Origin: Nereocystis luetkeana
Taxonomy: Eukaryota; Sar; Phaeophyceae; Laminariales; Laminariaceae
DNA: 64,000 nt
Assembly (NCBI GenBank): GCA_031213475.1
Contig: JARUPZ010000002.1
Coordinates: 248,001-312,000, forward strand
Reading direction: 5' to 3'
Below the pieces are notes generated by a model that saw nothing but the letters and a program-made list of their open reading frames with translations, had not been told where the DNA came from and ran no database searches. Numbering within the stretch: position 1 is the first letter of the stretch; every line of letters begins with the position of its first letter. Shown here one piece after another: positions 16,521-64,000 of this stretch. A program made the position numbers and the translations under genes.

Positions 16521-16676
16521 GCAATAATTCGGCTAACGAAGGGGCTGAAGCGTAAATGCGAGAATTCAAAGATTTCGTTGCAAAACGGAGCACAGGCTTG
16601 ACTGAACCACGGCCGAGTCTGGAGCAGGTGAGTGAGGCAAGCAAACTCGCCGAAGAAACTCGGTGAGCATCGCTAG

Positions 16677-29083: not shown

Positions 29084-29289
29084 CTTGACGTGCTTTACCC
29101 ATGGCTCTTCGGCAGGTTGACGGCGTGTACACTGCCCAAGCGGCTGCAGGTTTCCAGGTGCATCACTCGAGCCCCCGATAGCTTAGGACCAGGAATAGTT
29201 TTATTCCCTAGGAGTCCAAGAGAGTATCGTCCGGTTGAACCATCGATATCTCCGGGGCATTTTCAAGCGTGTGCACCAAGTTAGCCTGG

Positions 29290-30900
29290 GACAGGTCCTC
29301 TCCAGAGTGGACGTGTCGTATTTATATTGGCTGTTTCGCCGTTTTTTTCCTCAGTCTTGTGTTATGTTGATACACGAGACCGCGACCGCGTGGAGAAAAC
29401 CTGTGAAAAATCTGCCAAGATGAATACGAGGCATTCATCCTGGAAAAACGTGTCGAAGTGTACCTCGATGTACACGTCTAGAACGGGCCCGGAGGTGTCG
29501 ACGATTGAACATGACGATACTCTCCTGGCTTGTGAGATACTAAAACTATACGAGTAAGCACCCGTTGGGATCCAGCTCTGACAAATACGTTTCGAAACGG
29601 GTCTCATAATCGTACGAGTAGCATCTGATGCATGGCTGTCGACGTAAACTTACAAATATGTTTTTATTTTCAGTCGCCCGCTCAGACTAAAACATCGCCA
29701 AATGGGGGATATCGTAAGCAACCTCCCGGGAAGTTAAAATTCGGCGTCAACAAGGCTCTTACATCGTCGGCGATTACCTTACGAGAAATCGCCTGGAAGA
29801 AAGCTTGTCGGAGTGCCGTTTCGACCTCAACCTTGCCCCGGGTAACCACGACGGAGACCCGGATACGACGAGGACGTACACTGGGCCAACAACAAATCTC
29901 CTCCAGAAGACCCCCCAGCAAGTATCAGTGATGGCCCCCTGCCACCGTAACACCAACAACAGGTGAAATCCAGCCTCTATTAAAGGAGAGAGGATATCGT
30001 TCTACCCTACATTACGTGTCCTATTTCCTTTTGCTTTCTTTTGCCGCCCCAGTTTGTTATATTGACCCTTTTTGTCCTCTGTATTTTGTAGTCGTAACTC
30101 AGATTCGGGGTCACATAGCAGGCCCCCACTCCTCCTCCCAACTACAGTTTGTGCCTTGCATGTTTTTATCGCAGCGCTTTCTTGTGGAAAAAGTGCGAAG
30201 GAGGCCCCGTCTGTGACTCCTCCCCACAAGGATTGACTCGTTCCGAATATTGTCGAGAGCATAGGTGATCTGCGAGATGTATTGGTCAGCTTCTTCTACG
30301 CTCTCGCTGTATTTTAGCATAGCCGGTTGGACAGCCACCTGATCTACTCTGCCGAGAAAATTGAGGGGGCCCTCATCCTCTACCATGCGGATAGTGTCGA
30401 TCTCCCGTTCCAGTCAATGGCTAGGCTGAACTGGGAGTTCGGCGTTGCCCACAAGGTAGAATAAGAGGACCCCCTCCAGTCCCTTAGGTAGATAAGATAG
30501 CTGATCCTCTAGCTGTGCTTGAATGCAGCAAAAAGGTGGAAAAGGGGATCGATACATCCTGTAGAACGTTTCGACTCTCTCTGCTACTGAGAAGAAGACG
30601 ATCGCTTCCCGCCCCGGCACCCATCGCTCCGAGACCGGTGAAACAATTCGCGATGCAACTTAATAGAATTTTCTCGCGGGTGCCGCTTAGATGGTTAGCA
30701 CTGCCTGCTCTAACGCATCCACTAAGGTGTGAACCTATCTTCCATGTCAAGAGTAACCACTTCCCCTGTGACGGTACCCCTGCCTTGATGTCGAGCCGCA
30801 CCGTCCCACCGCAAAACAGGGCCCGCAGTCCTGATGGACCCAAACACCTCAAATGGGACGAACGACCACGAATAATCTCGTCCCATTCCAATCAGTGAAA
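29290..30900 (-). mobile_element. Copia-like remnants upstream of the RNase H piece
   Basis: Minus-strand segments include a gag-like piece at 30386-30111 (VEEADQYISQITYALDNIRN) and weaker pol-like segments at 29.3-29.9 kb. Order and strand fit one element with the 28.66-29.08 kb piece, much of it missing or scrambled. Broken; limits approximate. Confidence 0.45.
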
Positions 30901-37300: not shown

Positions 37301-39478
37301 ATAGCAATAATATTTTGGCTGTGAGCAAAGTTATTATTGACACGAAGTATTACGGGGGACCATAGTTAATAGGACCAAATATTGTTAGTAGAGATGGTTA
37401 AATATATAGGTTTTTATGTACACCACAGGTCCTATTAACTATGGTCCCCCGTAATAGTACTCTTGACGCCTGATATTAACAATAGCGGTGTCAATTATGG
37501 GAAAAACACTGGTTACTGCTGAAATGCATCTACCTGCATGTGACCGAGGTCTCGCCTGCGCTGCCCTCACTTCCTCGTCGATGTCACTGATACCTGGTAT
37601 CGTTTTACCGCTCGTTCCTTGACCAGGGCGTGGGACGTCGGCAAAGTTGTTTTTCGATAATAATGCAATACCTGCCCCCAGCAGTATCATAGCCAGCCAC
37701 ACACACGACACCCTTCTGCGGCACCAATTCTTTGATTACCCGGCACTTTGAAAATACGGCAAGTACAGCAGCACCCTACCATTGGTACCAGTTCGTGGTG
37801 GCACTAAAAATGCTTGTGGATTGATCCTTGCCCCCGCTGCGGTTGGTGATGGGTTTTTTTTTTTCGCGCTGCTTGCTCAGCTGCTGAAGTATTTCCAAGC
37901 CGAGATGGCCCTGCGCTTCAGACAGCGGCTGACGGAGCACGTGATGACCAAGTACATGAAGGGCTTCAACTTCTATGCTGTCTCCAATCTGGACGATCGA
38001 CTTTCCAACGCCGACCAGGTATGATACAGTACATGTTGCATCTTGCCGAGCTGACGGACTGCTTGTTCTGCTTGGACCGCTTGTTCTGACGCGCACTGCT
38101 GCTTTGGATGGCGTTTTGCGTTTTGCCTTGCAATCCGGTACTCGGGACCATAGGTTCCTCACGTACCTTTGGCACCCATATAATAGCGCGTGCTGATGTT
38201 TTTTCGCTTTAGTTTTTCAACTATACTGCACGTATCCCTGGTGTATGTACTCATAGCTTGTTGTCCTCGGTTTGAAACCATACTGCACTACCTCGCGTAG
38301 CTGTGCGCTCTGTTTGGCCTTGTTATGGCCTCTCTTGCCCTCATTACGGTACGCCCGCCCATTGTGTTGGCGGCTTGAGCAGGCGATAACCCAGGACATC
38401 GAACGCTTCGCAGAGTCCGTGGCAGAGCTTTACTCCAACATCACCAAGCCCGTCCTCGACATGATGGTGTACGTTCGCAGGCTTTCGGACAAGGTTAGTC
38501 ACAACGGACGGTGGCGTCGCCTGGCCATCTTTGAAAAAGGCCCAACACCCGTATCGGGTTTTCCTACAGTAACAAGGCGCCACCGGTTATTCGTGATGTT
38601 TCGGTTGTATTCATGAACAACACTGATTGATGTAGATCGACGTTACGTACGTTGGTTGGTCCTTGTACACAGAGCGCGGCGTACAGTAGTATATCGAGGC
38701 ACGCCACAGGAGGATGGTAGATCATTTTAGAGACAAGCTTTCTGTAGACAGAAAAAATACGCGTTTCGAAAGCAGCCTGCAATAATGTATGTATCAGTAG
38801 CAGCCTGCGTCTGCGAGTATCGTACCAGGTATGTGTGTAGTGCCGTCAGCAGTGTTATCCATGGTGTGCCCACTCCTTCTTGCGTATCGCGCTCGATGCC
38901 CGTTCAATGTGCACAACTGCCTTCACCCTGATCCTTTACGTGTCCTGTCCGCGCCAGGTTGATCCAGCAGCGCCAGCGGCGATGATCTCCTACCTTCTCT
39001 TGTCGGGGGTGGCCCTCGGAGCGCTCAGGTGATTGAACGCGCATTGCCCGGCTGTGTTTGATGACGAGATGACAGCACCGCTTGTCGTGGCGTCGGTTTC
39101 AGCTGCAAAGGGTCTGCCGATGCTGTTGTTATCACGTTAGCCCATGGTCATAATATATTGTCCGCGTTTACAAGACGAGCTCCAAAGGTAGGGCAGCTCT
39201 CGCTCCGTAGGCGCTCGCGCTGATAAATACTTGAATGTTTGTAACTGGCGTCGACTGTCTGCGCTGGTCGAAGCTTTGTTTCTACACTATGTACAGTATG
39301 TTGGTTCGTGATATGTTGGTGTTGGTGGTGCTGGGCCAAAGTAAACTGAATGGGGGCTTTCGGTTGAACGGCGCGGACTTCTTGCCAGCCTCGCCAGGTT
39401 AAAAAACACCAACCCCCTTTTTTTTGCTGCTGTGTGAAGTAGAAACTCTTTTCGCTCGCGACGACATCATTCATTTTC

Positions 39479-39511
<33 letters not shown>

Positions 39512-42500
39512 CGTAAAGGGTACCTGGTAGGTTATTTACCAGGCCGAATGTGATATTCGGGTTATTTTCCCGGGAGGTTGACACTGCCGCGCCCCGTTCC
39601 ATGATCTCGATTCGCTTTCGGTCTGTGCGCGGCAGAAAGCCGACGGCAATGTACACCGCTCTGGTGGCCCAACAGGATGGGGAGTACCGCTACGTCAACA
39701 GCCGACTGCTTACCAACGCGCAAGGTTCGGCTCTAACTCTGTTTCTCCCAGCCCGCTGCACCATTTGTCCTGTACCAGTTTGGAGTCTGTCGCGTTTCGA
39801 TCGGATCTTGCTCTCGCTCATACGCAAACCAAACGCGTCTCGTTGGAAGAATAACAACCACGAAATATTTCAGTCACCAGGTACGTGCGTATTGGCATCT
39901 GATGCCCCCCGGACCTTGCCGTCTGACGTCCTCAGAGATTGCGTTCTACAAGGGCAACGCGAAGGAGAAGCAGGTGCTGCAGGGGGTGTTCGAGAAGCTG
40001 GTGTCGATCACGAGACGGTCCGAGCGCTTCCGCCACTCCCTCGGAGTATTGGACTCTGTAGCGGCCAAGTACTTCGCCACCATTGTGGGGTGGACGGTCG
40101 TGTCGCGCCCTTTCGTAAACAAGGACCACCCGCGACACGCCAACAGCACGCCGGCAGAGGTCTATCAAGGTAAGCCGCGGCAGGGGATGGCGAGCAGGCG
40201 AGATAAGGGATGCCATCTTCTAGGCGCTCCTAATACTTGCGGTCACACCATCGCAGTCCACTCTTCCAGTAGAATCTACACACCCCGTATCACGCTTTGA
40301 TGATGGTAAACGTATTAATTACACCAAGCTTGCAAAGCTGAGTTTTGAGTAAATTTTCTATCTCATCTTTTTTTGTTTTTCGAATAGCGGGTCTTGATGT
40401 GGGTTCGCGGTTCTCTGCGACAAAGTAGGCAATGAAAGGAGTGGGGGTTTCGCGTCATTTTCTACGTGGGCGCTTCTAGTATTGATAGTCGTTGCCACGG
40501 AGTAATCGCTGAGGGATCCGTCAGAAGCGTCTGTTAATCATAAATATGCTACTCGTACAGTAGGAGCCCGCTGTTTGATCCCTTGACTGACCGCCGCCCT
40601 ACACTATTATCAGTATAATAAGGGAAGAAGGTGTTGACGGCCTTGACGTGTCCAAAGTGACCGGTCTCCTATTAATAGATTCACACCATACGAGGTACTG
40701 TGATTTTGTAGTAGGCGTGGTAGACAAGGGTTGTTTATTGGGTGCTTTGGGGCTCGGCAGGTCTGACGCTCGGCAGGGCTGGCCCTTGTTTTGTGATTCC
40801 AAGGCGTGCGATGATTCACTCGTTTTTGTTTCCACTCGGTGGGCGCGTCCCTCTATTCTCCTCTCGCTTTCTTCTCTTCCAGTGTTCGTGTTTTCTTATA
40901 TGTCAATTTCGAGCCTGTTTTTGCTCTTTTGTTTTGTCGTCCGGCTTGTCGTGTCGCGTTTCCCGCTCGGGGTGGTTTTGTTTTATCGTCGACAAAATTA
41001 CTTCGAACGGAAAAAAACAGATTACCACTCAAGTGGCCGGATGATGCTCAACCTGTCGGCGGCCCTGGGTCGGCTGGTACTCTCCGGGCGAGAACTTGCC
41101 CGACTCTCGGGGTTCAGCTCCCGCGTGACAGGCCTGATCGACGTCATCGACGACGTCAACAGAGGCGTGCACAAGAAGGGAAGACAGGTGACCAGCCCCG
41201 CGGCAGTGACAGCGACGGCACCCGCTGCTGCAGCTGCTGCCGCGGCGGCGACGGTGGCGGCAGGTTTGCAGGGGACCGCGACGGGGTTTCCACTCCAGGC
41301 GTCGGCGGCAGTGGACTCGGACACGAAGGCAGCATCAGCTGCAACAACAGCGGCAACAACAGCGGCAGTATCAGCGGCTGCAACAAGAGCAGCAGGAGGT
41401 GGAAGGGCAGTAGCAACAGCAGCAACAGTAGCAACAGTAGCAACAGCAGACGCGCCACGGGCTGCGCAGGAGAGAATATTTACTCCGCATACATCCACCG
41501 GAGTGGGAGGGGGCCACCTGCTGTCGGCAACGGACCGCACGCCCGAGTGGCCTGCCGCGGGACAGCGGGAACCAGCGACACCCTCCTCCGATACCGCCAC
41601 CGCCACTGCTTTAGGGCGCGATGTTGCTCTTTCCCCCCCCTCCCTGTCGGCTTCGCTGTCGGTGGAGACTGTTCGAACGGGTGTTCCTTCTCGCTCTGCG
41701 GCCGAGACTAACACTGTCGCAGGGGCGGCAATCGCTCAAGGCTATGGCGAAAAAGAGGCAGCGAGGGGCGGCACAGGTCGACGGCGAAGCGAAAACGGAA
41801 CCGTGGGCTGTGCGGTCTGGGAGCAGCCCGAGCTTGCGCCAGAGGCGAGTGCTGGGGGAGCGGTAGGCGAGGCGGGAGCGGGGGCAGGGAGAGCGAGAGG
41901 GGGGAGCTTGGGTGGGGAGGGGGAGGAAGGGGTTGCGATTGAGGGTTCGGACGGTGGACGGAAAATTCGGCGATCCGGGTCTGTTTTGGTGAACGAGGGA
42001 AGCATGATCGAGTTCACCGATGTGCCGCTTGTAACACCGAGCGGCGAGGTCCTGATCGAGGCCCTCTCTTTCAAGGTACGGAAGGTGTCAGAAAGGGTTT
42101 AAGAGGGAGCGATGCTCAGTCGCGCCTTGCATGGATCTGGACGCGGGGAGGGCGCAGGATGGCGGCAGTGGGGGGCGGGGTCCTTGTCCTAGAGGTTTCT
42201 CGTTTGTAGAGATTTTGCCTTGAATTGCGCGCGACGATGCAGAGTTACATTGTGGCATCCCACCAATCTGCGCGAGAACACGGGATTTCTTATGTTTCGC
42301 TTCGTTTTTTTTCTTGGTACCAGGTGATTGTCTGCTTTCCTTCTCGTTTTCCAACGGCACATTAATATGGCGGCTGTCGATCACGATAAAGTGCTGTTTG
42401 TGACGGGTAAAGCAGCGGATGCGGGGCGAATCGACCGCTCGCGAACCGTCAACTCTGTATGATGCCCGGGTTGAGACGCTCGTACCAACGAAACCCTCCC

Positions 42501-45460
42501 GGGCCATTTGCAAGCCTGCAGCGCACCACCTTACCAAGCCCCCCCCCCCCCCCCCCCGGAAAGTTTGGGAAGTACAAGGCAGAAGTAGAAGAAATGATAG
42601 AAATAAGTGAAAGGCTAGCGCTACGAAACAATGTGGAATCGGAAAAAGACCTAGAGATGTACGGGGGATTGAGGGAAGGAATAGGAATGAAAACGTATCT
42701 GCACGGCCCAATGGACTTCGCGAAAACGCTGAAACTGCGCTTTCGTGTAGGTGACCTGGACCTGCCAGAAAGAAGAAAGAGGTATACCAGTGGCCGGGAG
42801 GAGGAGGAAATAGATGCACAGATGTGCCCGTGTGGCAAAGCAATAGAGAGTAGAACTCACATAGTAGGAGAATGTGAAATCTACAAGGAGGAACGGCATG
42901 TGTTAGAAGAGGAGATGAGGGAAATACACCAATGTGACATGGAGGAGTTTGATACACTAGATAGCAGCGAGAAAACGATCACTATCCTAGGAGATAGATG
43001 GTGGCCACAGGCGGCCAAACAGGAAGGGGATAAGAGTAGCAAAAAGTGTCTATGCAATATATGGATTAACGTAATGAGCGCCCAATTGTTGGAGGTGTCT
43101 CTATTAGGAGTAGGAACGGTGCTCCGTCTCGAAAGGGATGCGTGGCCAATGCTTAAATGACTAAGGCAAGCAACAAATGAGTACGCCCCCCCCCCCCCCC
43201 CCCTGTGCCACCGCCTCCCGTCCTCGGATTGTTTCTGCGGTTCCCGCCACGCGATTCGATTGGACTAGGTGGAAGCGGGCATGAATGTTCTCGTGGCAGG
43301 GCCTAACGGGTCGGGAAAGTCTAGCCTGTTCAGGGTGCTGGGCGGGCTGTGGCCGTTAACGGGCGGCGTTTTGGTGAAGCCGCCGAGGTCTAGGCTGTTC
43401 TACGTCCCGCAGAGGCCGTACTTAGCTCTCGGGACTCTGAGGGACCAAGTTATCTATCCGCACACGCGGGAAGAGGTAAAGCGGAACAAGAAGAACGCAG
43501 AGGCCTACTACGGGTAGGCGTAGGGTTTACGCCCCTTTTCCTTATATCGCCTGTAGAGCTGCCAAAATGATCCCACACGAGAACCCGAGCAGTCTCTCCC
43601 AAAAAGCGGGAGAACGGTTCTTGAGGGGTTTAAACAACTTTTGGCAGCGGTTTTCGCTCATGTTGACCAGTGCGTTGCTTTTGAGGATGGCCTGCCTGCA
43701 CTGTTTGCTGCCTGTGCGATGATGGCGAGGTTTCAGATGGCGCCGGGGGGCGGGGGGCCGTACTTTTTTTTTTCGGATTTTTGTCCTCGTGAGAGCTGTG
43801 GGGTAGGAAATCAGTCCCCTTTTCGCCTTTTCGTTGGCTCCAGTCGCCCGTTGTGCCGTGCGCCACCTCGTGCGCTCGAGTCGCCCTTTCCCGCGCCTCG
43901 TATAACTCGAGTCGCCGTGTCGTTGCCTCGAGTAACCCCATTCCGCCGCTTAACTGGTTCAATTTCCCCGACTCGGCACGATGGCCTCAACCTGCCACGC
44001 GCAGTGCACAAGCCATGTCGATGTGTAGCCTTCAACAGCGTCCGATGTGGGGCGGCCCCTCCCCCCCCCTCTCCTCCCAGCACAGTTCCCAGCGCCGATC
44101 CCGATAACGTTCCCAATCATGGTGCCTGCCGCATTTTGGGTCCGACGCGTACATCCAGGCCGCAGAAGGCGGAACTACCGATGATGGGTTACTGGTCGTG
44201 TTGGAGTCGGTCAAGCTGGGGTACCTGCTGGCTCGGGAGGGGGGGTGGGATGCCGTTCGAGACTGGACCGACGTCTTGTCCGGGGGCGAGAAGCAAAGGC
44301 TGGCGCTCAGCAGACTCTTCTACCACCGGCCGCAGTTCGCGATTCTGGACGAGTGTACGAGCGCTGTGAGTTGTGCTGGCGCTCCTTGCTGTTTTTAGTT
44401 GACATCATGTCGTTCGGCTCCTCGCGTTTCAATTTAGACACGCCCTTCCCTGCTTGTTGCTTCGTGCGGCCGTTGCTTTACTATACTGTAGTCAAGTCAT
44501 TACGCTTCGACACTTTCCTCGCCCCGAAGAGGTCACTGTGACACGCTGCTGCCATGCGCTTTGCGGGCTGTTCGTAGGTGAGCGTTGACGTCGAGGGCGC
44601 AATCTACAGCCTGGCGGCGCGCAGCGGGATCACTCTCTTCACCGTGTCCCACCGCAAGAGCTTGTGGAAGCATCACAGCGTGAGTCATGGGTGCGCGGCA
44701 TCACGGCATCCGCATCCAGACCTCTACCATTTACTACCAATGGGCATGCCACCAGCACTCCGTATATATATACTGGTGTATCGTACCACTCTGTCTGGAA
44801 ATGTAATGATCGTTCGGGTATAAATAGCAATTACCAAACGATCCTTACATTTCCGGACAGAGCGGCATACTGTAACATGTGCCACTGCCGAAGGCTGCTG
44901 TATTCGTGTGATTAATCGCGCTTCGAGTCGGAATGCCAGAGCGCAACAGACGGATTTATGCCAGGCATCGTACGGGGTGGTGCATGGGTGTGTTCGTGAC
45001 TCTCGTGCTGCGCGCGAAACAAGCAAAACCTTCCAACGCCTACGAGATGGATTTTGCTGTTGGAAAATTCAACTATTTTTAGATAATTTGTTCAGCTGGA
45101 TTTTTTTTTTTCAAGTTGCTGTGTTTTTCATTTTTATTTTTATTTTCGACGTCCACCTGTCCACATTGGGTGTGTGTGGTGACGGAATCTAAACACGCGT
45201 TGTGTCTCGCGGTGGAATTACTCTTTCGGGGACGTCAAATCAAAGGCGGCTCATGTACTGTGGCATGCTCAGAAACACCTACGTACGTGCTGTGTACTAT
45301 CCACGCCGATGTCTTCCCCATTAGTGACGCTAACACGCCTTTCGTATATTTGTGCAACCCTCCCTAACTCGCGCAGTACCTGCTGCGTTTCGACGGATTG
45401 GGGGGTTACGAATTCAAGCCGATGTCCGAGGTTGGCGCTGGTGAAGACATGGGGTCTTGA
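34324..45460 (+). CDS. Peroxisomal ABC half-transporter, ABCD (PMP70/ALD) family
   Basis: Exons: 34324-34518, about 36658-36891, 37881-38018, 38383-38493, 38958-39028, 39636-39724, 39936-40169, 41021-42075, 43269-43475, 44159-44365, 44578-44679, 45377-45460 (stop TGA). From 36.7 kb onward all junctions are GT-AG and in phase. A short N-terminal exon carries a hydrophobic helix. The transmembrane domain follows ([30 protein letters not shown]). The EAA-like loop is in EIAFYKGN; then come [12 protein letters not shown] and [11 protein letters not shown]. The nucleotide-binding domain has Walker [10 protein letters not shown], signature LSGGEKQR, Walker [11 protein letters not shown] and H-loop TVSHRKSL. 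Family members dimerise in the peroxisome membrane and import fatty acyl-CoAs. An in-frame Ala/Thr/Gly-rich insert of about 275 residues separates the two domains, taking the product to about 900 residues against about 650 usual. The second exon is uncertain (see findings). Confidence 0.93.
34806..35205. repeat. 42-bp minisatellite nested in a 135-bp duplication
   Basis: Within the first intron of the ABCD gene. A unit marked by GGGTACC..GAGCTGAAATG and CGAGTCCC recurs at a 42-bp period (GTACC blocks near 35049, 35091, 35133, 35175). At its left, a roughly 135-bp block beginning ACCAGTGATTGGGACTCAGT occurs twice (34806 and 34941). Confidence 0.85.
36224..36332. mobile_element. 109-bp MITE, copy 3
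   Basis: TA-flanked copy with inverted ends (TTACGGGGGAGCATA / TATGGCCCCCCGTAA), inside the first intron of the ABCD gene about 330 bp before the next exon. Confidence 0.87.
37348..37456. mobile_element. 109-bp MITE, copy 4
   Basis: TA-flanked copy with well-preserved inverted ends (TTACGGGGGACCATAGTTAA and its complement), in the ABCD intron 36892-37880. The best-matched arms of the set suggest a recent insertion. Confidence 0.9.
39481..39510. repeat. (GCT)10 triplet tract
   Basis: Ten uninterrupted GCT units in the ABCD intron between the exons ending at 39028 and starting at 39636. Confidence 0.95.
42539..43203 (+). mobile_element. 5'-truncated LINE end flanked by poly-C
   Basis: Within the ABCD intron 42076-43268. 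After a C19 tract (42539-42557) comes an open frame to a TGA at 43158-43160. It carries a LINE-style C-terminal zinc-binding knuckle ([20 protein letters not shown], followed by YKEER) and a Trp-rich end (GDRWWP). A short 3' tail ending GAGTACG runs straight into C18 (43186-43203). The reverse transcriptase part is missing. A second copy of the 3' end lies at about 49970-50044 with the same junction. LINEs move by target-primed reverse transcription; 5' truncation is usual for them. Confidence 0.72.
44771..44874. mobile_element. Small TA-flanked foldback element (second MITE type)
   Basis: About 104 bp, almost all inverted repeat. The left arm holds CTCTGTCTGGAAATGTAATG and the right arm its near complement (CTTACATTTCCGGACAGAG), with a roughly 15-bp centre. 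Outer ends TACTGG.. and ..CTGTA are more diverged. It lies in the ABCD intron 44680-45376. The CTGTCCGGAAA style of terminus and the TA flank fit a Tc1/mariner-type derivative. Confidence 0.72.
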
Positions 45461-46647: not shown

Positions 46648-46756
46648 TATTACGGGGGACCATAGTTAACAGGACCTATGGTACACATAAAAACCTATAT
46701 GTTTAACCATTTTTACTAACAATATTTGGTCCTGTTAACTATGGCCCCCCGGAATA
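46648..46756. mobile_element. 109-bp MITE, copy 5
   Basis: TA-flanked copy with inverted ends (TTACGGGGGACCATAGTTAA / complement with one or two changes) in the spacer between the convergent genes. Confidence 0.88.
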
Positions 46757-46856: not shown

Positions 46857-46935
46857 GTAATAATATATATAATATATATATATATATATACCTGGTATAT
46901 AATATGTATATAATATATATATGTATATATATGTA
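46857..46935. repeat. AT dinucleotide tract interrupted by CCTGG
   Basis: An imperfect (TA)n run. At 46889-46897 the alternation is broken by TACCTGGTA and then resumes, so CCTGG plus a TA appears added into the tract. Confidence 0.85.
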
Positions 46936-47450: not shown

Positions 47451-48546
47451 GGGAAAAGTGGATGTTTTTTCTCTTGAATCAGGGAAATTAATGAAGGGCA
47501 AAAAGACAGGAACGCGCTTACGTACGAGCATTCCTCTTTTGGGGGAAAAAAGCCCCAGGAAAACCGGGGGGGGGAAAAAAGAAAAATCTGGAAAACCAGG
47601 AAGGTCAAGAAATTTAGGAGAAATCACTCTTCGATAATAACGGCGCCTTAGACAAGAGACAAAAACAAATCAACATAGCCAAATCCACCCAGCGGTTTGT
47701 TGCCACAGTGTTGATTCCTCCCCTCCGACAAATAGTATGGTACGGTATTTCACTCGATCCGCGCAACGGCACAAGAACGCCGCTGATCATGCAAGTAGAC
47801 CCGGTTAGAACAATCAGTCTTTAATGTTGGCGGAAGGTTTATTGAGGGCTTGCGCTGTACCAGGTACGTCTTACCATTGCCCATGGCTTGGATTGGGCCA
47901 CTCCGCCTGCGCCCAGTGAAAGGCAGAACGTTCGGCAGCCGATCATCATCGCCGACTTTATAAAGTATGTTCATAAGGATTCTACACATGCAGAGCGCGA
48001 GAAAAAAAAAATGCACAACGTTGATCTTCCAACGAAAAAATATATAAAAAAAAAAAACTAGACCAAAAAAAAAAAAAAGACGCTTCAATAAACATACTGG
48101 TGCATTCAGTTCAGAGGATGCGTGAGCGTTACGAGCCAACAGACGGTGGTCCACGCGAGTAAAAAAATACTCACGCACACACCAGCACCATGGCGCGATA
48201 ATCCGGTGACGAGGCACATGCAAAAAAGCATGATGCTTAAACTGTTGGATGCAGCGCCCAAAGGTGAATGATTCGATCTCCATCACTCCCGTGTCCCACT
48301 TCGTGGCATCGAAATATTAATCCCTACGGCGACAGAACAGTCCACCGGTCGAGGGCTCGCGGGGGCTCGCGAGGTATAATACGCTGCGTAGCAGGGAGAA
48401 GATGTAAGAAGACCGCAATGGTAAAAGTATCAGGTATCGAATTACACGCGCCAGCCCCCGAGGGCATCCGTCCGTCCCTCTCTTCCTCTCCCTCCCTCCG
48501 GCGCGTTTGGACCATCACACTCCCGGTCGACTGATCCCACGAGAGC

Positions 48547-49282: not shown

Positions 49283-52200
49283 TCATGCGAGGTAACGGTA
49301 GTCCCCAGGCTTTTTGGGGTCTCTCTCTAGGTAGTCCCTTTCGATGAGGGACTCTATCCTCTTCTTTAGGTCTACCGGGGTGGCCGGGAACTTGATCTGA
49401 GAGAAAAGCTCGCTCATCAGGAGTGTGTGCGCGAGGTTCTTGCGCGCCTTCATGATGCGCACGATCGCAGCGTCCACCTGGCAGAAGAGAAAAACGGAGA
49501 TTGACAAGTAATAATTGTGGGGGGCGGGTGCACTAATTGTCGTGCATGGCCGTAGTCGTATGGTCATTGGCCCTCGCGTCCCTACAATGCCGGGACGGAG
49601 CACGTCTAACTATCACCGACCAGGCAGACATTTCTTGTACCAAGCGCGAAGCGCAATGGGGCGTTCGGCGAGTTTGAAGGGGGGGGGGTTAACCAACCTT
49701 TCTCCCACTGCAAGCATGATCTTACTCATGTGAAACCCAAACACATGAAACCCGGTATAGCAGTGTCTGGCTTGCGGAATCGCGTGTCTACAAATAGTGT
49801 TTTTCCTTCGGACGGCACGACAACCAAAATCGAGCACGTGGATTCACTTCAGCCCGTGGGCCCGTGCACCTGACGGCATGAGGCCTTGAACACCGAGGAT
49901 AACAAACTACCGCCAGCACTTCCGCAGAAAAGTAGCTGCCCAACAGCGAAGGCGCCCTGAGCACCGCTCCGTCTCGATCGGAATGCGTGGTCAATGGTCA
50001 AACGACTAAAGAAAGCAACAAATTAGTACGCCCCCCCCCCCCCCTGTCATACGACTACGGCCATGCACGAGATCGAGTACATCTCTCCTATCGAGTACAC
50101 CCCCCCGCCCCCCCCCACCCCCATACCCCTCCCTGCCTCATCCTCCTTCCCCCTCCCGGCTCCATCTCTGCCCCTTACCTGATACTGGCGGTCTCTGAAA
50201 ACAGCCTCGTGGGTCTTCTCGTTTTCTTCTGCGGTCTCCTTGAGCTGGATGCTGTTGACCTTGATGCGGTAGAGCTTGGCCGTCAAGTCTCGGTTGAAAA
50301 CAAACCTGTCTCCGTCATTTACCTCCCTCCCCCTCGGTTCCTTCTGGAGCACGCGTACCTTAAGCGGGCCCAAAAAGAAGACAATGTCGGCAGTTTAGAT
50401 AAATGGAACCGCACCCACCTGTTAGGCCTAACAGGGGATAATTTACATGTATTTAGTGCGGAGGACGTAGCAAAAGGAGTAATACAAGCTAGGGCGGTAG
50501 TGGGGTCGGTTGGTCGGTTGAACATCGTCCTCAGCGAGTGCCTGGAGAGGCCGTCGCCGCTAAAAGAAACCGTAAAAAGCACAAGAAAAAAACAAAATCA
50601 ACCCCGAACACGCACACAAACAACCTCAAACACGCAGAAACAACCACAAACACAAATGAGCGAATACACACAAAATAGTTTAGCCGCCACTACCAGAAGC
50701 ATGTAATGTACCGTATGATGGAGGCAAAAGCACGACCAGCAGAGCGACACCGCCGCCGATGGTTGGTACAGGGATGGAATGGTTGAACGCGTCCGCTCCG
50801 GAGGAGTGCCAACCATATAACAATAAAAAAGTCGTTCGTGAGCTTAAGTCAGTGAGCGGTGGGGGAGTTGACCAAGAGGACGTCTAGAACAGGCCCGCCT
50901 GCAAGCAAACTAAAAATATTAACACCAAAAAGCACGCACTGACAAACTACAGCACTATCGCACTGCCGCTCTAACGCACTATACAGCACTGCGGCAACAC
51001 CGCGCTATGCAACTAACGCACTACCGCCTACCTCACTAGCGCATCACCGCACTAAACTCGTCACACGCGTGGGACTACCTCACTATCGGGCTAACGCAAT
51101 CACGGGGCACCATAGTAAATAGAACCTAATATCGTTATTAAAAATAGCGAAATATATACCTGGTAGGTTTTTGTGTGCACCGTAGGTCCTATTTAATATG
51201 GTCCCCCGTAATACTAACCCTCTACAGCGCTGCCGCACCAACCCACTACCGTTATGACGCACCAACGCACTACCGCGCCAACACACCACCGCACTCTACC
51301 TTTTACAATTACCGGCGTGCTGCCGCATACCGCAGTCTACCGCACTGACCTTGCCGCACGCGAGCGACTGCAGCGTTCGTCGCAGCTCGCCATCCTCGAT
51401 GTTGGTCTTCTCCTTAACCTCGGCAAACGATACCTCATCCTCCGTGCTGAACCGCCACAACACCAGAGTCTGCAAGGCAACACAGAGTTAATAAATACGG
51501 AGGCGTGGCGGACAAGGAGGGGCGGGGGGAGAGGGGGTTCAAGACGCAGCGGTTGCACGTTTCTTGATGGATCTCGGCGTTCTGTTTAAAATAATGAATA
51601 ACTGGTCTAATACTTTGCCGTAAGGCATCGAACGGACGGAAAAAATATCAGGGCTATACGACGCACCCTGGTACCAAAATACCTGGTACATGCGAAACAT
51701 ATTGGGATTGGCCTTGAGCATTCTTCCACAAACCACTGCCAAACTCGCGGTGCTCACTAATCAGTAAGCAGATATGACTGAAACGGATTATGTTGATGAT
51801 ACGTGTTTATGTCTTCACAAGGCGCGGAAACGAGGAGAGTACTTCATTCAGCGCCCACTCTCTCATTTAAAACATTTCCACGCCACACAGAAGACTACCA
51901 TCAACGCCATCAACACATCAAGTAACCAATCAATCAGTCAAGCAATCAATCAACACACCAATCACCCAACGACCAACCGATTCAACCAGCAACCAAGCAA
52001 ACCCAACCAACCAATTGAAATCAGCTGACCAATCAACCAACCAATCAAAATCAACCAACCATCAACGAACCAATCAAAGTCATTCGTCCGTTGGCACCCT
52101 CGCTATTTTTACCCGTCGGCCCAACAAAACTACAGTAAGCACGGCAAGGCTGCCTGTACCACTAAAATCGACAGCACCAACAACTATACCATTAGGGGGT

Positions 52201-55200
52201 ATAAACCTGACTACCGGATAGCAAAAGGGGCAGTATGGGGCAGGCCCGACTACTGTAATGCAGGTCGGCCTAGACGCGTGTACTTACTCACAGAGATTGA
52301 TGTCTTATCTTGATGATTCTCAATTTCCTGGCTCTCAGAGAGTTATGAGAGCAGGGGGGTTTTCTATAACTTATTTGCGTGGCGCGTTTCATCAGAAACA
52401 CGCCTCCTCGACAATAGAGGGAAACATGATCATGAATACCATGACAATTAATACGCCACTGGCGTTGCCACCAATGACCCCGATAATAGACGCCGCCACA
52501 AACAAAACCCACAAAATAATGCCACATTTAACAAAAAAAATACCAGTGCATAGTGTCAACGTTACTAACAATGCAACTTGACAAAAAAAAAAAAAAAACA
52601 CTACGTATATTCCACGATGACGCCAGTGATAATGCCACCAATTCTGTCAATTAGCGATGGCGCCAACAATGCAACTTTCAAACATATGCACAACCCCCCC
52701 CCCCTGGTTTTCCACACCCTCATATTTGTTTCCTTTCAGTACGGAATGCATGTGTACATCCTTCATAAGGTCGTACGAAACCCGCAATGCGCGCGATCGG
52801 AGCATCACGCAGAGCTAGCAGAGGAAGAGTTTCGACGCAATCCTCGATCTCACGGTTCATGCTTTAGTTCTATTAGTAATAGTAGTTTTATGTACGATAA
52901 TGACACTATACCAACCTGAAGCTGCGAGAGAGCGAGTTCCTTGCGACCCCTGGGGAAGGCGACCTTGACGACACACTGTCCCAGCATGGGCTGCCAAACA
53001 AGGCGGCGCCCTTGATACTTGTTCTGGTAGTACCACCTAGGCACATTCGCATGTACATAGAGCCGTTGGCAGCGTCGTTGGAAAAGCCATTGGCAGAGCC
53101 GGTGGTAGAGACGCCGCAAGAACCGTTGGAGAAGGCGTTGAAAGAGCCGTTGGAAAAACCGTTGGAAGGGACGTTAGAAGAGCCGTCGGTGTCATCGCAC
53201 ATGGGAAAAACGGCAAATCGTGGAAGGGGGGCGGGAGGAGCGTCAGACACAAAAGAGACCAATAAAAAAGGAAGGCGGGTTTGTTTGTTGAAAGAAGGCG
53301 TGAGACGAGCGGTACAAGAACCCCAACACAAAAGATGAGCACACTTTTTGTTTTCAAAGTAAGAACAACACCAGTGGTAGTGGCAGTGGCCGTAGACAGA
53401 AGACGCCACAGGACATCAATACCTGGTACAACGTACCAGGTACAGGTGAGGGGCTGCAACCCACCTTCGATTGCAAAAAAACACACCTGAGGTGCATCAC
53501 GTCCCCAGTCACCGTAATTACTGCTAGCGCTAGGCCAGGCTGCGGCAGGGTGTGTGTGCCTGCTTCATGCTCACATTACTGCTAGCGCTAGGCCAGGCTG
53601 CGGCAGGGTGTGTGTGCCTGCTTCATGCTCACATTCGGCTGCACACCCTACAAACAACGCACGCGCAGCAGGGCACTCCCAAAACCAACCGGCCTCCGAT
53701 ATCACACGACACCCGCGCTCACAGCGCCAGCGACACAGCAGCACGCATATAAGCTAACGCATATGGTATACACGAACACAACAGGAGGTGTCACAACGAG
53801 CAACGCCTCCACCCAACGTGTTGCGTCGTGTACGTGGTTCACAGGAGATTTCTCAAGACAAAAAAACGTCACCATCTCACTTGAAACACTCCACGTGCTC
53901 CTGCATTTCCTCCGGCATCCCGACTTCCGTGCTGGGGTACGCGGGCCAGTATCCCGTCGTCAGAACCTGCACGTGGAGGTCCATCTCCCTGCTCTTGTCG
54001 AGCTTAAACACGGTGCGGTCGTCCAGCTTTGCCTTGAGGTGGTGCGAGTAGGTGGACATCAAGTCTCTGCTCAGGTCGATGTCCTTGAACATCCCCTCCA
54101 GCTTGGACGTGAACGCGCTTCCGCACTCCGTCTTTTGCGGCGACGGAAAAAATGCGGAGAAATAAGAAGAAGAGCAAGAACACGGCAAGAACAATGGTTG
54201 AGAGCAGGGAGAGGGAGCGCAACAGGGACACGAGAACGAGAACGAGAACAAAAACAATGGTTGAAAAAAGCCAGCAACGGAAAAAAACACAGCCCCCCGA
54301 AACAAGTGACCGCAGGGAACAACAGAAGTGTCATGCTACAGTAGTAGCTTCACACGTAAATAGAGCGGAAAACGATAAAAAAAAAATTGATCTCGAGAGG
54401 GAAGGACTACGGTCACACGACAGCTAAAACAACGCGGAGCAGAAGAGCGAGACATTCCTTTCAAGCGAGGACGAACCACAACGTCAGAAATGTTCGTAAT
54501 ACTCTAAAAAAATAAGCCTAAAATCAACACGACCACAGCACCACAGCACAAAAAAGTACGAAAGGCTACGAAGTCGACGGGTACGAGAAGCACACCTCAA
54601 GTCCCATCCGACGAAAAAACAAGCAGCACCATACCTCACCACACACTAGCGACACAAACAGCGCGACACATACAGCAACGATGCAACAGATTGCAGCGGC
54701 ACACCGCGTAGATGAGAGCGAGTGAAGCGAGCGAGTCGAGGGGACGGTTGCTGCGTCGGCCGTGCTTACGGTCGATCGATCGATCACCTTGAGCTTGGAG
54801 ATCATGGATTTCTCGAGGTCGAAGCTGGAGCTCTTCCCTAGCAAGAGCCGTTTCGCGAGATCTCTCTTGTAGAACGCCTCGAACACGTCCTTCCCCTGGA
54901 GGTACCTGGACAGGTTTCGAAGGTCCATTCACGATGTGTCCAGGGGGGTCGACACGCGTCCGTCGATGGTTGGTCGATTGCGTGAGCAGTGAGGGTGATC
55001 TCGCTCATATCGTTCGGAAGACGGCAACAACAAGTGTGGTTGCAGAATAACAGCAAAATATATCGACCCAAACTGTTGACAGTTTCAGAGGAAGCGAGAC
55101 GCATACCCTGCGGTACGTACACCAGCCATGATTCGGTGTTATCTGGAACGAAAGCAATACATGGGGCGTTTTGTTCTGCGGCATCAGACTACTGCTGCGT

Positions 55201-58200
55201 GTCAAACTGCTGTAAAGATGTGATGACGCAATAACTTTTTGGGGATAGACAAGCGCAGGCGTAGCGACCGATCACATGGTGACTGCGGGCGCACCAACCA
55301 TCTACCGGTGTAAATGGTGTGAGCTCACAGCAGTGCCAGTAGGATTCATGCTGCACGCGTGTCGCACACCTTGGCACCTCGGGCCGATAGATCATCTGCA
55401 GATCCTCTTCAGATCATCGACAGACAATCTAAACAGATAAGCTAAACAGATCGCCTACAGATAATTTACAGATCGCCTGCAGACCATCTACAGATAATCC
55501 CAACTTCAAGATCTAAATATTCCAGGGCAGACAGATCACTGATCTGTATGATCTGTACAATCTGCACGATATAGTACACGTTTCATGGGTTGGAGCTGTA
55601 CTATAGACAGCTCCTGCACAACCTCTCACACAACCTCTCACAATAACAGGTAAGGAACTAGATCATCTACTTCGTACATGATCTGTAGATAGATATATCA
55701 TGCTCTATCTAATCTGTTTCTACAGTAGGTGTGAACTTGTCGCATTGTAGTTCGGACCCTATAGGCATCGCCCCGCAACCCGGCACAGCAGCGCTTCCGT
55801 CCGGTATTCCAACCACCATAACGGTGCCATATCATACAGCTCGCCGTAGCATTACTGTAGGGAAAAAGGGGCTTACCTTATTTAGGAAGGCACTCCCCTC
55901 TTGGGGGCATATTACTTCGAATTAGAGTGACCAGACATATGTTTTCTGTACAGGAAAAAAAGTGCACCACTCGTACAAAAAGGGTTTACCCTTTCAGAAC
56001 CGCAGTCCCGTGTTGGGGACAAATTACTTATAAATTGACTGGATTGTCCCCACAACGGAACTGCGGTTCTAAAAGGGTGAAGACAATTTGACCCGATTTT
56101 TGCACGAAACATGAAGAAAAACAATACTTCTATTGAAACTAGCGTAGAAAGCGTTGACTCAGCACACAGAGGCGCGATCGTTTTTCAGCGCAATGGTTGA
56201 TAGTTTTCTCGACAAGGGTGAGGTTGCTAAGACCTGTGCCAATGGAAGAGCAAAGTTCCATAAAAAGTTTGAAATCAAAAGACACCCACCATGACACTTC
56301 AGGTGCACCTTGCGACGAGCACGATTCTTCAAACCGAACGTTCCAAACATTTGGAAAACCTGAAAAAAAAAACAACTATGGGGCCGATGTTGGGCCAAGA
56401 TCGGCTTAAGAATAACTCAAGAGGGATGTTTGGTTCGAAGCGGCGAGGTTCCGAGTCCTCGACAGACATCGATCGACAAAACCAACGACTGCGTCATGAA
56501 TTCCGAACGGAGTGCGCTCGTTAGGAGCTCGTACCTACCCTTGGGTCACCGTGTTCACACCGTGCCCGATGATATGTGGCGGGCGCTAGCCAGGTGTATT
56601 ATACAAAAAACAAGTGACCGCTGGCGTACACAAAACAGATGACAAAAATTCTCGATCCGTTTCGAATGGCAAAAACTAGTTTTTTTCACGTTTGGGAAAA
56701 AGTGTAAGACGCCGCCGGCAAGCGTTTGCCCCTTACACCATGGATCCACCTCATATCTTCGAGGCCGTCATCAACACTCGTTGGCCTTGCCTGACACCAA
56801 GCGGGTTGGCCGTGGGCTGAGCCTATTACGTCGAAATCGGAGGTCTATCGTCGCATGAGCCGATTTTAATCAGCGTGTTGAAAATTAGCAACGAGAAAAA
56901 AAACACAACTTGCGCCGCCTGCAGCCGTTTGAAAAAAATAACAAGAAAACATCAAACATTTTTTCCCGTTTTTTCCCACAGCGGTGGTACGAGAAAATGT
57001 TCGACTGTTTCTCGAAGGCAACATTTTTTTGAAGTTTTTTTTCCAACTTTTTCGCGTTCCCAATTGTCATAGGTCTAACGTCGAACGTTCTATTTTCTGA
57101 AGGCTCTATCTAGACCAGGCATTCCCGAAAAACGCCTCCTTCGGTGTAGGCAACCTCTCGCCCTGGAAAAATCGAGAGCTGAAAAACGATCGCAATCCTT
57201 GCGCGAATTCAACGCTCTTAAGGCAGTGTAGGGCACACACAAAGTCTGTAGCACATACTCGTTGGAATCTGAGCCCGGCTTAGAACACGAAGAAAAAAAA
57301 AAAAAAACACGTTGACCCCTGCAAGACTTTTTCCACCTCTACTTCCGAGCAGTTTTCGTCCCAGACGTGGTTGCAGTTCTTGAGGGGTGAACAGGTGTCG
57401 CGTATTCATAGAATAGCGTAGTCTACATACGTACTCAAGTTGTCTTGTATACCAGGTGTACCTGAAAAGTACCATGACTTTGTCGAGAACGTTTTCCACG
57501 TCATCGTCCGACATCCCTTTTTCTCCCTTCAACTTCAAGTCCAGGAACTTGGCCATCAGTTCCGCCGGCCGGTTGTGCCTGTCGCCCAACCGACACGAAA
57601 CCGCCGCGAAAGGGAATTAAACCGTTTCCAAACGTAACATGACGACCAAGAGGGAGGGGGGGAGGAGGGGGAGGGGGAGGGAGGAAGGGAGGGGAAGGAG
57701 GCACGGCGGGGGGGGGGGGGGGGGGGGAGGAGCGGGTAACGAGGTGAGAAAAAAACGACGGGAATTAAAAAAAGCCTACCGTCTGCAGTCGTGGGATATC
57801 CCCCCCTGCCCCTCCCGCCGTGCCGCAAGACTACAACGGGCCGGCCGCTCGCAGTCAACACAGTACGTATGGCGTGTATAAATAGCGCACATATATATAC
57901 GTACCAGGTACAGCTTTACGAACACAACACTTAACACGTTACCTGGCGTTCAGGAAGCCCTCCCACGCTTCCTTGAGCTTGTATCGGTACGACTCGTTGG
58001 CATCGCAAGCCTTGTCGACGGTCACGTCCAGTCGCGCCCGGAAGGCTAGCAGGTTGGACACCATCTCCTTGTCGTTCTCCTGCCGTTGGTTCAGGTTAGG
58101 TTTCGCGGCGCAATCGGCGAACTCGTGAGTGGTCGATTCTGTTTTTGTCCGTGAATATAAAAATCATACCATGACTGCCGTGCCGTGACCGGAACAACAC

Positions 58201-61200: not shown

Positions 61201-64000
61201 ACTTCCGTACCGTGGTACAGACGTGGCGGGAGTACGGCGTGAAGCCAATGCCGTCATAATTCTCGATGCGGGGGAATCGTGCGCCCCGTCCCAGAGGTTG
61301 TACACGGTACTATCCCGATACCACAAAACCGTCGGCCGTAAAACTTCTACATCTCCCTCCTATCTACATCGATCTGACAAGCATAACCAACACATTGCCG
61401 TATAAATACGATATATCGAGACATCAAAACCATCTCGGCGGTATGGTACGGAACGGTTCTGGGACGGGCCCGCGTCTGGCGTCATCTCGGGCGGGAGCGA
61501 GCGGTTGTGTGGGCGGTTCCTCCACTGCTGGTCAACGATGACGCCACACGCTAAGCACTCACGTGCTGCATGCACCGCAGGGGATGTTGAGCCGCTTTCC
61601 CCGGCGAGCGAGCAAGCACACGCAAAACAAAACACGCACGCTTGCACTAAACGTCTGGCTGCATTGTCGCGCGGTGCGGCGCGGCGCGGTACGGCCCAGT
61701 GTCAGTGCAGTGCGGTGAGCCTTAACTTGTTTTCGCGTCTTACAATCGTGAAAGTCAAGAGCGAAAAAAAGAAGCAAGCGAATTGCCATATTTCTCGCCC
61801 AAATCTACTACCAGGTATTAATAACTAAATATCCTCTTCAGACTATAGCCACCCGCTACATATAATACGCGAGCTGGTCTTGATCGTTTCGAGAAGCCGC
61901 TTACCCCCGGCCGAGCACAGCCGCGACGCGAACATGAAATTGTGCAAACCTGTTGGAGGCGCTCTTCTACATGCCGCAGGAAGTGCGGCACGTCCGCGGT
62001 TTCCATGTAACGAACGCCTTCAGCGGCGTAGAACTCCTCGGTTTCCTTCAAGAACCGCCCCTCGAACAACTCTTCGTACACCTGTCGCCAGGCCAACCGA
62101 GGCGACCACCGAGTTACCAACAAAATATCGTTTCTTACGTATTTGTGTGTGCGAGTTTCTGGCAGGAATCACAGGTGTGTGGCGCTTCTGCGCATTTTCG
62201 GATACGGTTGTGAGGACCGCCCACGCTTTTTAGGGGTGGGGCTCTCGTCGGGGAGTTCAATCACCGGCAAGGCGATGGTCACCCCAAAGCTCTCGAAAAA
62301 AACGGGGTAGGCGAAGCGTCTGTCAAATCAGGGAAAAAACGCCTGCCACGAACGCCGACATGAAACATTAGTACTGCAGTACCACTACACCTGCTACTGC
62401 GGCTGCTCCTGTTGCTACTGCTGTATCGGGAAATATTACTGTTGTAGGGTACTTTGGATATGAGAAGAGTAACGCGCTCCAGGCAATGGCGGCAAACGCC
62501 TTCATTGTGCGCACCGGACCAAGGGTGGAACAAAACCTCCACCACATCATCATCACCACTACCACCAACACCGACACCACCGCTGGCACCACCGTCACCA
62601 CCTTCACGATCACCAACACCACCATTAATAACATCGTTACCGTACCACCAAAATCGCTGCTGCCACCAACAACAACACCCACACCACCAACAACACCCAC
62701 ACGCACGACCACCGAGCGTGGGGACCACAGCAACTCACCTGCAGCGCCGACAGCATACGGAGGAGGCTGCGGAGCAGGGGACGATTAATATCCTCCCCCG
62801 TTCGCTCTCGCTCTACCAGCGTCAAGATCCCCGTCACGGTCTTTCCTTGCACTTCTGGAAGGCCCTGTGACAGGGTAACACAACCAACGAATTGGCGCGG
62901 GCGGGGGGGTTGTGATCAGGCCTTTCGTCAGGTGACACAATAGTCTTATCAAGCGCCTGTCGTCTTGGCAGACGAAAGTGTACGCTTCCGTCGTCATTTT
63001 TTTGTGGTGCACAAATCAACGCCGACTCATGCTTTGCCCGCTGATTGGCCATGCCTGGGAGAGCTACCGCGCGCGGGGCCCGCCGCACCTAATCGAAAAA
63101 TCTGATAGCATGGACAACCAGACTACTCCGCAAAGAAAAAACGGCCCGCACCCTGCTTGCTTCATCTGCTATGAATAGGATTTCTGGTGCTCTTCCCTCC
63201 ACGACTAAAATAACAGGGGAGGGGGACGCGAACAAGAACAACCGAAAAATAAAAAAAAAACGAAACGCCGTGTTCTCGGAACATTTATTCCTCATGGGGA
63301 TAAATACGCTAAACCTCGATCAAACCTCGTCCAGAGAAGACGAAAATCAAAAACAACAAAGAAGACGAAAACTCGATGCCCACGCTCGGGTTGACCACAC
63401 GAGGCTCGGACAATGCCAATAAGCCACAAACGACACAACATCCCCAGCTTCGTGGCTCCAACCACGCCCAGGCGAGAGTCATCACCACCACCGTGACCAC
63501 CACCACCTGACCACCACCACCACCACCACCACCACCACCGAAAAACCACAACCACCGTGACCACCAAGCATCACCAGCGACACCACCAAAGATTACTACG
63601 GGGGGCTATAGCAAGTAGGACCTATGGTACACACACAAACCTATTTATTTACCTATTTTTACCAACAATATTTTATCCTATCTACTATGGTCCCCCGTAA
63701 TAGCAGCACCGGCAACACCGGCACCAGGGAGGCATAGACGAATGCCGACCGACGTAAAAAAAAAAAGGGACACGTGCTGCTCCGTTTGATCCTCCGTTTG
63801 ATCCCTTTTAGTATGTGTTACCCTCGGTCCTGCCTCAATTGCCTTCACGGCCATAATTTGGCCTTAATTCACGTTTACCTCAAGGCAAAGCCGGAACAGC
63901 TCCAGCCCCATGTCCCAGATACTCCGCAGGCTCGGCATCTGCAGCACGAAGCTGCGGTCCAGGTAGAGGAACACGTTTCTCAGCGTGAGCATCGAGGAGC
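49283..64000 (-). CDS. CUL4: Cullin-4, ubiquitin ligase scaffold (5' part beyond window)
   Basis: Fourteen exons, read right to left: 64000-63879 (partial), 62864-62739, 62081-61950, 60964-60872, 60037-59936, 59397-59338, 58079-57943, 57578-57462, 54905-54788, 54131-53881, 53036-52916, 51469-51350, 50358-50179, 49477-49283 (stop TGA). All junctions are GT-AG and in phase, giving about 624 codons. Key stretches: [36 protein letters not shown]; cullin core [30 protein letters not shown]-terminal winged helix with the neddylation lysine in [11 protein letters not shown] and the terminal [17 protein letters not shown] and YRYLA. The spacing and [10 protein letters not shown] assign it to CUL4 rather than CUL1 or CUL3. 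CUL4 binds DDB1-DCAF receptors at its N-terminal half and RBX1-E2 at its C-terminal half. It acts in DNA repair, replication licensing and light or stress signalling. About the first 140 residues are missing. Introns are loaded with MITEs, LINE pieces and simple repeats. Confidence 0.96.
49970..50044 (+). mobile_element. LINE 3' end, second copy, abutting poly-C
   Basis: Aligns with 43125-43203: CTCCGTCTCG, ATGCGTGGTCAATG, ACGACTAAAGAAAGCAACAA and AGTACG are followed by C14, then CTGT. Only about the last 75 bp are present. It lies in the CUL4 intron between the exons ending at 50179 and 49477. Confidence 0.7.
50366..50830 (+). other. Coding-like fragment in a CUL4 intron, unrecognised
   Basis: A plus-strand frame is stop-free to 50706 (contains [20 protein letters not shown]) and turns into Thr/Gln/Asn-rich sequence. 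It resembles the tail of a transposon ORF but I cannot name the family. It lies antisense inside the CUL4 intron 51349-50359. Confidence 0.3.
51098..51213. mobile_element. MITE copy 6, 116 bp, carrying a 7-bp insert
   Basis: In the CUL4 intron between the exons at 51350 and 50358. The right end is canonical (GGTCCCCCGTAA|TA); the left end is diverged (CACGGGGCACCATAG). Relative to copy 4 (AAATATATAGGTTTTT) it reads AAATATATACCTGGTAGGTT. That is exactly CCTGGTA added, bringing 109 bp to 116 bp. Confidence 0.83.
53060..53190. repeat. 18-bp minisatellite
   Basis: Degenerate tandem units around GAGCCGTTGGAAAAGCC, about seven copies. They are open on the plus strand as a Glu-Pro-Leu-Glu-Lys-like repeat, but lie in a CUL4 intron with no sign of being translated. 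Confidence 0.75.
53517..53632. repeat. Perfect 58-bp tandem duplication
   Basis: Two identical units (53517-53574, 53575-53632), each beginning ATTACTGCTAGCGCTAGG and ending CTTCATGCTCAC, in a CUL4 intron. Identity implies recent origin or an assembly artefact. Confidence 0.93.
55395..55720. repeat. Degenerate ACAGATC/AGATAAT repeat field
   Basis: Loose repetition of ACAGATCGCCTACAGATAAT-type units with complementary TGATCTGTA strings further right. The result is an AT-rich, self-complementary patch in a CUL4 intron. Confidence 0.55.
55988..56078. repeat. Inverted repeat, 35-bp arms, 21-bp loop
   Basis: Left arm 55988-56022 starts ACCCTTTCAGAACCGCAG and right arm 56044-56078 ends CTGCGGTTCTAAAAGGGT, complementary with few changes. 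A diverged relative of one arm (CCCCTCTTGGGGGCATATTACTT) sits about 100 bp to the left. It lies in a CUL4 intron. Confidence 0.82.
57638..57731. repeat. Purine-rich tract with G-runs
   Basis: A GA/GGA-rich strand ending in a run of about 20 G with one or two interruptions. It lies in the CUL4 intron right of the exon ending at 57578. Confidence 0.85.
58460..58940. repeat. Short-period AGCCACAGT-type repeats
   Basis: At 58470-58570 a 9-bp AGTAGCCAC unit recurs many times. Related GCAGCCAC strings and (GTT)n at 58950-58966 follow. It lies in the CUL4 intron 58080-59337, immediately before the 20-codon exon. Confidence 0.75.
59338..59397 (-). CDS. CUL4: CUL4 20-codon micro-exon
   Basis: Only 60 bases, bounded by TAG| and |GTGCAC. 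It encodes [20 protein letters not shown], which fills the helix between RVHALDE of the preceding exon and ENDKEMV of the next, equivalent to the ALLQHWSEYIKTFG region of animal CUL4. Phase 0 at both ends. Easily missed by gene finders. Confidence 0.88.
63486..63545. repeat. CCA/CAC triplet tract
   Basis: Nearly uninterrupted CCACCA units in the largest right-hand CUL4 intron. Confidence 0.9.
63594..63702. mobile_element. 109-bp MITE, copy 7
   Basis: The right end is canonical (TATGGTCCCCCGTAA|TA); the left end is diverged (CTACGGGGGGCTATAG). Same 109-bp length. It lies in the CUL4 intron 62865-63878. Confidence 0.84.

Follow-up and report, generated by a model that had tools for sequence, protein, structure and literature searches.

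TACCWGGTA sites in a 64-kb window as a possible archive of excised transposons

Results

The window, by which we mean the whole stretch of 64,000 nucleotides analysed here, contains cullin matches in five minus-strand reading frames between positions 49286 and 62168, and an F-box-like match (Pfam) in the frame at 21082-22710. One of the cullin frames was compared with solved structures, and cullin-4 was the closest. Since the cullin exons are split, we call the window eukaryotic. A Pfam scan of 14 reading frames of the window, from a total of 241 frames of at least 90 amino acids, revealed no transposase. The window also carries a tandem duplication, offset by about 1 kb, that pairs 25522-26060 with 26542-27076 (88% identity over 543 columns), a second repeat pairing 26398-26541 with 27076-27218 (91% over 144 columns), and fold-back inverted repeats at 16651-17114 (464 bp), 29195-29549 (355 bp) and 30276-30558 (283 bp).

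The nine-base word TACCWGGTA, where W is A or T, was found 19 times in the window, or about once every 3.4 kb. In 100 dinucleotide shuffles the mean count was 0.29 and the maximum was 2, while an order-2 Markov model gave an expectation of 0.48, and multiplication of the core count by the squared frequency of TA gave 0.35. A weaker null, which assumes independence and starts from the raised one-sided counts (TA adjoins 37 of the 167 CCWGG cores in the window on the left, and 33 on the right), raised the expectation to 7.3. The word to which the preliminary description drew attention, TACCTGGTA at 51157-51165, is real, and is one of 19 sites where 0.29-0.48 were expected. Two TAs are separated by five bases at 178 places in the window, of which 19 are TACCWGGTA and the runner-up words account for four each; among the 27 other sets of nine-base palindromes of the form TA-xyNy'x'-TA, the top count was also 4. 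When identical dinucleotides on both sides of CCWGG were counted in the window, TA scored 19 and the runners-up 2, and TACCWGG was followed by TA in 19 of 37 instances (p 3e-16). The centre base was A or T in all 19 words, and a search of the window for the C/G-centred form, TACCSGGTA, returned none. Variants with one mismatch occupied 23 places, in 10 of which the change lay at the outermost base. Pairwise comparison of the 30+30-base flanks of the sites gave a best identity of 45% and a mean of 27%; the flanks are unrelated, and the sites thus look like separate events and not copies of a larger repeat.

Eight sites were recognised by word count: TACCAGGTA at 28200-28208, 34626-34634, 35550-35558, 35962-35970, 38823-38831 and 47858-47866, and TACCTGGTA at 37591-37599 and 39521-39529. 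Among the sites beyond 49 kb, TACCTGGTA at 51680-51688 and 53420-53428, and TACCAGGTA at 53434-53442 and 57902-57910, lie between the cullin exon frames, as does the site at 51157-51165; all six sites in this part of the window are outside the five cullin frames, as judged from frame limits and not from modelled exon ends. At two places in the window a pair of scar-like words has one TA in common, namely at 12373-12388, where two stacked TACCWGGTA words form TACCAGGTACCTGGTA, and at 61809-61823, where a word with a CCAGG core adjoins a TTAA scar-like word (TACCAGGTATTAATA).

The full sites have a symmetrical flank preference. Counting outward from the TA, 35 of the 38 half-flanks had A or T at position -7 (relative to all TA sites, p 3e-8 without correction for the 12 positions inspected), A was favoured at -6 (21/38) and at -5 (19/38), and a purine occupied -1 in 32 of 38. 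The 38 half-flanks are not fully independent, because adjoining sites have some flank sequence in common. Leave-one-out scoring placed the half-flanks of the window at a mean percentile of 0.81. In a control set of 85 half-flanks from sites in metagenome-assembled genomes (MAGs), nearly all of them clearly bacterial, the mean percentile was 0.61, and the fraction with A or T at -7 was 0.66, as against 0.92 in the window. Such symmetry would be produced by a TA-inserting transposase, and also by a dimeric binding protein.

Comparison with sister copies that lack the block was possible in a 109-bp repeat that is short, has terminal inverted repeats and a TA duplication, and leaves no room for a transposase gene, as is the case for a miniature inverted-repeat transposable element (MITE). 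We aligned 13 copies, 7 from the window and 6 from elsewhere. In the window, the TA-flanked copy at 8896-9004 and those at 46648-46756 and 63594-63702 (all on the plus strand), as well as those at 36224-36332 and 37348-37456 (both on the minus strand), are without the block; the first TA of the copy at 36224 doubles as the last TA of a TACAGTA. The remaining two copies each carry the CCWGG block, which is found in 1 of the 13 copies at each of two different TAs. The copy at 51096-51213 (minus strand), which lies between cullin exon frames, has TACCTGGTA at 51157-51165, and the 7-bp gain at a TA that had been reported for it was confirmed as clean relative to the sister copies. The gain reported at 11784 was likewise borne out: the copy at 11762-11878 (plus strand), whose right end is unrecognisable, has TACCTGGTA at 11784-11792, a TACCTGG gain of 7 bp. 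This copy also has a TATTAA gain of 6 bp, by which TA becomes TATTAATA in all four pairwise comparisons that span this third TA. The two 7-bp gains affect separate TAs in separate copies, and no two of the 19 sites have related flanks; the idea of a single lineage stemming from one ancient event, raised earlier as a possible objection, was thus not upheld.

The expectation that empty sites keep the TA held for most sister copies, but not for all. At the TA that gained the block in copy 11762, 9 of 12 sisters have TA and the other 3 CA; for the gain in copy 51096-51213, the TA is present in 9 of 12 sisters, absent from 2 and ambiguously aligned in 1 (tallies at both sites were read by eye from the 13-copy alignment). 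The repeat pair 17114-17172 and 18180-18231, described previously as paralogues near 17131 and 18196, gives weaker evidence. The 7-bp difference is present, with TACCAGGTA at 17141-17149 and no block in the partner near 18196, but the partner has CA and not TA at the join, in an alignment that is weak (76% over 59 columns) and in which the gap was split 5+2 by BLAST. At 46889-46897, TACCTGGTA interrupts a TA run, as had been described, at a place of which no empty copy was seen.

Half-sites, TACCWGG without the second TA, were also in excess in the window (32 against about 14 expected, for example at 46042 and 60214). They do not show the flank preference, since 7 of 14 and 5 of 18 have A or T at -7, and the possibility that they are decayed scars was rejected for this reason. 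Full sites and half-sites cluster, with 11 neighbouring pairs no more than 40 bp apart against 1.6 expected.

Two other words were enriched. TACWGTA, a published footprint word of Sleeping Beauty, occurs 24 times against 6.4 expected (for example at 38682 and 54337), and TATTAATA occurs 10 times in the window against 0.23 expected (for example at 11836 and 28898), so that several scar types may coexist. The MITE was weighed as a candidate source of TATTAATA, as TT+AA would be expected from ends of the form TTAC..GTAA. The bases at its targets (CTAC in 5 of 11), however, seem to differ from those at TATTAATA (CTAA in 4 and CTAG in 4 of 10; Fisher p 0.08, G at -1).

When genome contigs were scanned with a pattern for both ends of the MITE, 2 contigs matched, and 2 more contigs with the MITE were present in their two genomes. 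Searches for the MITE in new or overlapping sets of 51, 398 and 392 genomes gave matches in one (G002), two (G001 and G385) and one (G002) genome, respectively. Beside the MITE the GC content of these contigs shifts to a bacterial value, which suggests assembly chimeras that include window-like DNA; the boundaries of these stretches were set by eye from GC. Chimera-like stretches of apparently eukaryotic DNA in bacterial MAG contigs are L016 1-2016, L018 7410-7898, L019 1-260, L020 1-115, L047 12000-17850 and L057 1 to about 1000. These stretches may be algal, and the window probably derives from a brown alga. The stretches found through the MITE in G001 and G002 (2,879 bp) contained no TACCWGGTA, where the density of the window predicts fewer than one. 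The first 0.7-1 kb of G385:C131, a stretch with its edge set by eye that was found by the MITE and not by the motif, carries one TACCAGGTA, with half-flanks at percentiles of 0.88 and 0.99. Both TACCWGGTA words of G002 lie in the last 5.85 kb of contig C8, a stretch that was found through the motif, which makes this evidence partly circular. At its start this stretch has two Pfam matches, a weak one to integrase that falls short of the cut-off and one to RNase H that exceeds it. The six half-flanks of these three sites outside the window scored from 0.31 to 0.99.

Counts over whole MAGs were set beside those of a reversed-pattern control. G002 (3.2 Mb) has 2 TACCWGGTA against 5 for the control, and the MAG as a whole is thus not enriched. 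G001 (2.8 Mb) has 23 against 14, all 23 in AT-rich DNA, and G385 (5.5 Mb) has 60 against 34. We inspected 21 of the 60 sites in G385 (20 stretches): 1 is that in C131 beside the MITE, 19 are in AT-rich DNA, and the remaining site, at base 5 of C94, lies in ambiguous sequence. When the C8 stretch was pooled with those found through the MITE (8,729 bp), TACCWGGTA occurred twice against 0.067 expected, a comparison biased by the motif-found C8, TACWGTA three times against 0.93 (P 0.07), and TATTAATA twice against 0.13. Window-like stretches hold 3 of the 9 TACWGTA in G002 and 2 of its 3 TATTAATA, the third, in C34, being not clearly in such a stretch. Scans of IMG/VR for the MITE gave no match, and a search for relatives with the frame at 42459-43160 gave two pattern matches, neither of which is a relative.

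Discussion

The best explanation of the TACCWGGTA sites, to which we assign a probability of roughly 0.7, is that they are excision footprints of a Tc1/mariner-like, TA-targeting cut-and-paste transposon. A larger element would then once have been present at each site. Insertion at TA would have duplicated the TA, and on excision the transposase would have cut within the element, leaving short 3' tails, here probably five bases long, made of the outermost bases of the element. Closure of the gap by end joining would give TA-CCWGG-TA. Two identical tails (CCAGG with CCAGG, or CCTGG with CCTGG) could anneal with a single mismatch, and repair of this mismatch in either direction would account for the A/T centre.

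The kind of event proposed is well known. The transposases of Sleeping Beauty and mariner begin with a nick three bases into the element, and the 3' tails are joined to form the footprint (PMC7827188). The consensus footprints of Sleeping Beauty are given as TACAGTA and TACTGTA (PMC4378557), and in the table of a review Sleeping Beauty and Frog Prince both have C(A/T)GTA, whereas Hsmar1 has T(T/A)A and Himar1 has ACTA (PMC3878927). A form that differs from these two sources, TAG(T/A)CTA, is printed for Sleeping Beauty in another review (PMC2874221); the window has 4 TAGWCTA and 24 TACWGTA. In the mouse genome, TACAGTA and TACTGTA occur as endogenous sites at more than 300,000 places (PMC4378557), and such a word alone is therefore no proof of a scar.

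Like TAC(A/T)GTA, which Sleeping Beauty and Frog Prince leave behind, TACCWGGTA has TA on each side of an A/T-centred palindrome, and the origin proposed for it is likewise end joining after a Tc1/mariner transposase has cut within the element. It differs in that the core is 5 bp, CC(A/T)GG, and not 3 bp, and in that the Sleeping Beauty element is known, whereas here there is the scar word alone. The Hsmar1 footprint is also an A/T-centred palindrome at a TA target, although its bases and length differ, while that of Himar1, a mariner element, does not have the A/T-centred form. The duplicated TA on both sides of the core is what is found in Tc1/mariner footprints; the palindromic core with its A/T centre fits Sleeping Beauty and Hsmar1 but not Himar1, and is thus not strictly defining. 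By analogy, CC(A/T)GG would be a five-base version of the A/T-centred footprints. Stowaway and Osmar5 elements in grasses similarly leave short fragments of their terminal repeats between duplicated TAs, and insertion of a Stowaway element adjoining an old footprint is on record, which would parallel the TAs shared in the window by pairs of scar-like words and by a MITE with a TACAGTA; in that case five distinct footprints were described at one intron site across species, whereas here a single word recurs 19 times at unrelated sites in 64 kb (PMC1925063).

Several findings speak against excision scars, among them the form of the Himar1 footprint, the excess of half-sites, the zero count in the MITE-found stretches of G001 and G002, and the failure to see a transposase in the 14 frames scanned. 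The core of 5 bp is outside the 2-4 bp given for Tc1/mariner footprints in one source (PMC7913693), while another allows 1-4 bp from the element ends, which CCW+GG would fit (PMC1925063). In addition, a scan of the window for TA-flanked inverted repeats of 50 to 8000 bp gave 20 pairs, most of them MITE ends or AT tract, and none beginning with CCWGG, so that no full element with TA and CCWGG ends was found in the window. Excision by a piggyBac element, which restores TTAA without a footprint (PMC3878927), was rejected, since the sites show a 7-bp gain at TA. The core itself is also the Dcm/EcoRII site, an explanation of CCWGG that was set aside because it leaves the gains at TA unaccounted for.

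In the MITE copies the block adds 7 bp, and in the window and the MITE alignment there are empty and scarred sites but no filled ones. Both facts would agree with insertion of the seven bases as such, as a tiny element or a repair insertion of CCWGG plus TA, in which a larger transposon never took part. We consider this unlikely: the TA duplication, the A/T centre and the flank preference are those expected of transposase scars, and we know of no mechanism that would move a 7-bp block to many sites. Between these two options, which were both put forward at the outset, excision scars are the better supported, although the distinction is incomplete, as no site still filled by a whole element came to light. 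That no CCWGG-ended element was seen in 64 kb, together with the high density of scars, could mean that TA-bounded elements were systematically eliminated from the cell line sequenced, much as ciliates remove internal eliminated sequences (IESs) but with a fixed scar; this is very improbable, as ordinary cut-and-paste repeated over time would yield an identical pattern.

Quite unlikely as well is a functional palindromic protein-binding site maintained by selection. The extension of the symmetrical motif to -7 and the small number of one-mismatch variants are consistent with it, and a binding motif would account better than scars for the surplus of one-sided sites. Two of the sites, however, arose as TA gains in MITE copies, and the six sites beyond 49 kb are outside the five cullin exon frames that were tested, a position still compatible with a regulatory role.

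If the sites are excision scars, a more specific picture may be drawn, which we regard as doubtful. A transposase with an unusual five-base stagger, generating self-annealing CCWGG tails, would leave nearly always one identical scar, and the elements would depart efficiently, perhaps as a programmed step of the life cycle, until scars far outnumbered surviving copies and formed a genome-wide archive of insertions. Were the density of the window to hold across the genome, scars alone could suffice to count a nearly vanished transposon family and to deduce its target preference. An excision history that is usually invisible would become measurable, and small indels would gain a further recognised source, a recurrent 7-bp insertion. 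Our literature search gave no description of a CC(A/T)GG scar word, or of such a density, among the matches listed, which does not prove its absence from print.

Two further words of this type were seen in the window. TACGAGTA/TACTCGTA, the former perhaps a Minos-like footprint, occurs 9 times against 1.65 expected (for example at 29549 and 40550), and at 40550 has a TA in common with TACAGTA. TACCGGTA occurs 4 times against 0.43 expected, at 780, 27672, 32892 and 35994, and is perhaps a minor repair product.
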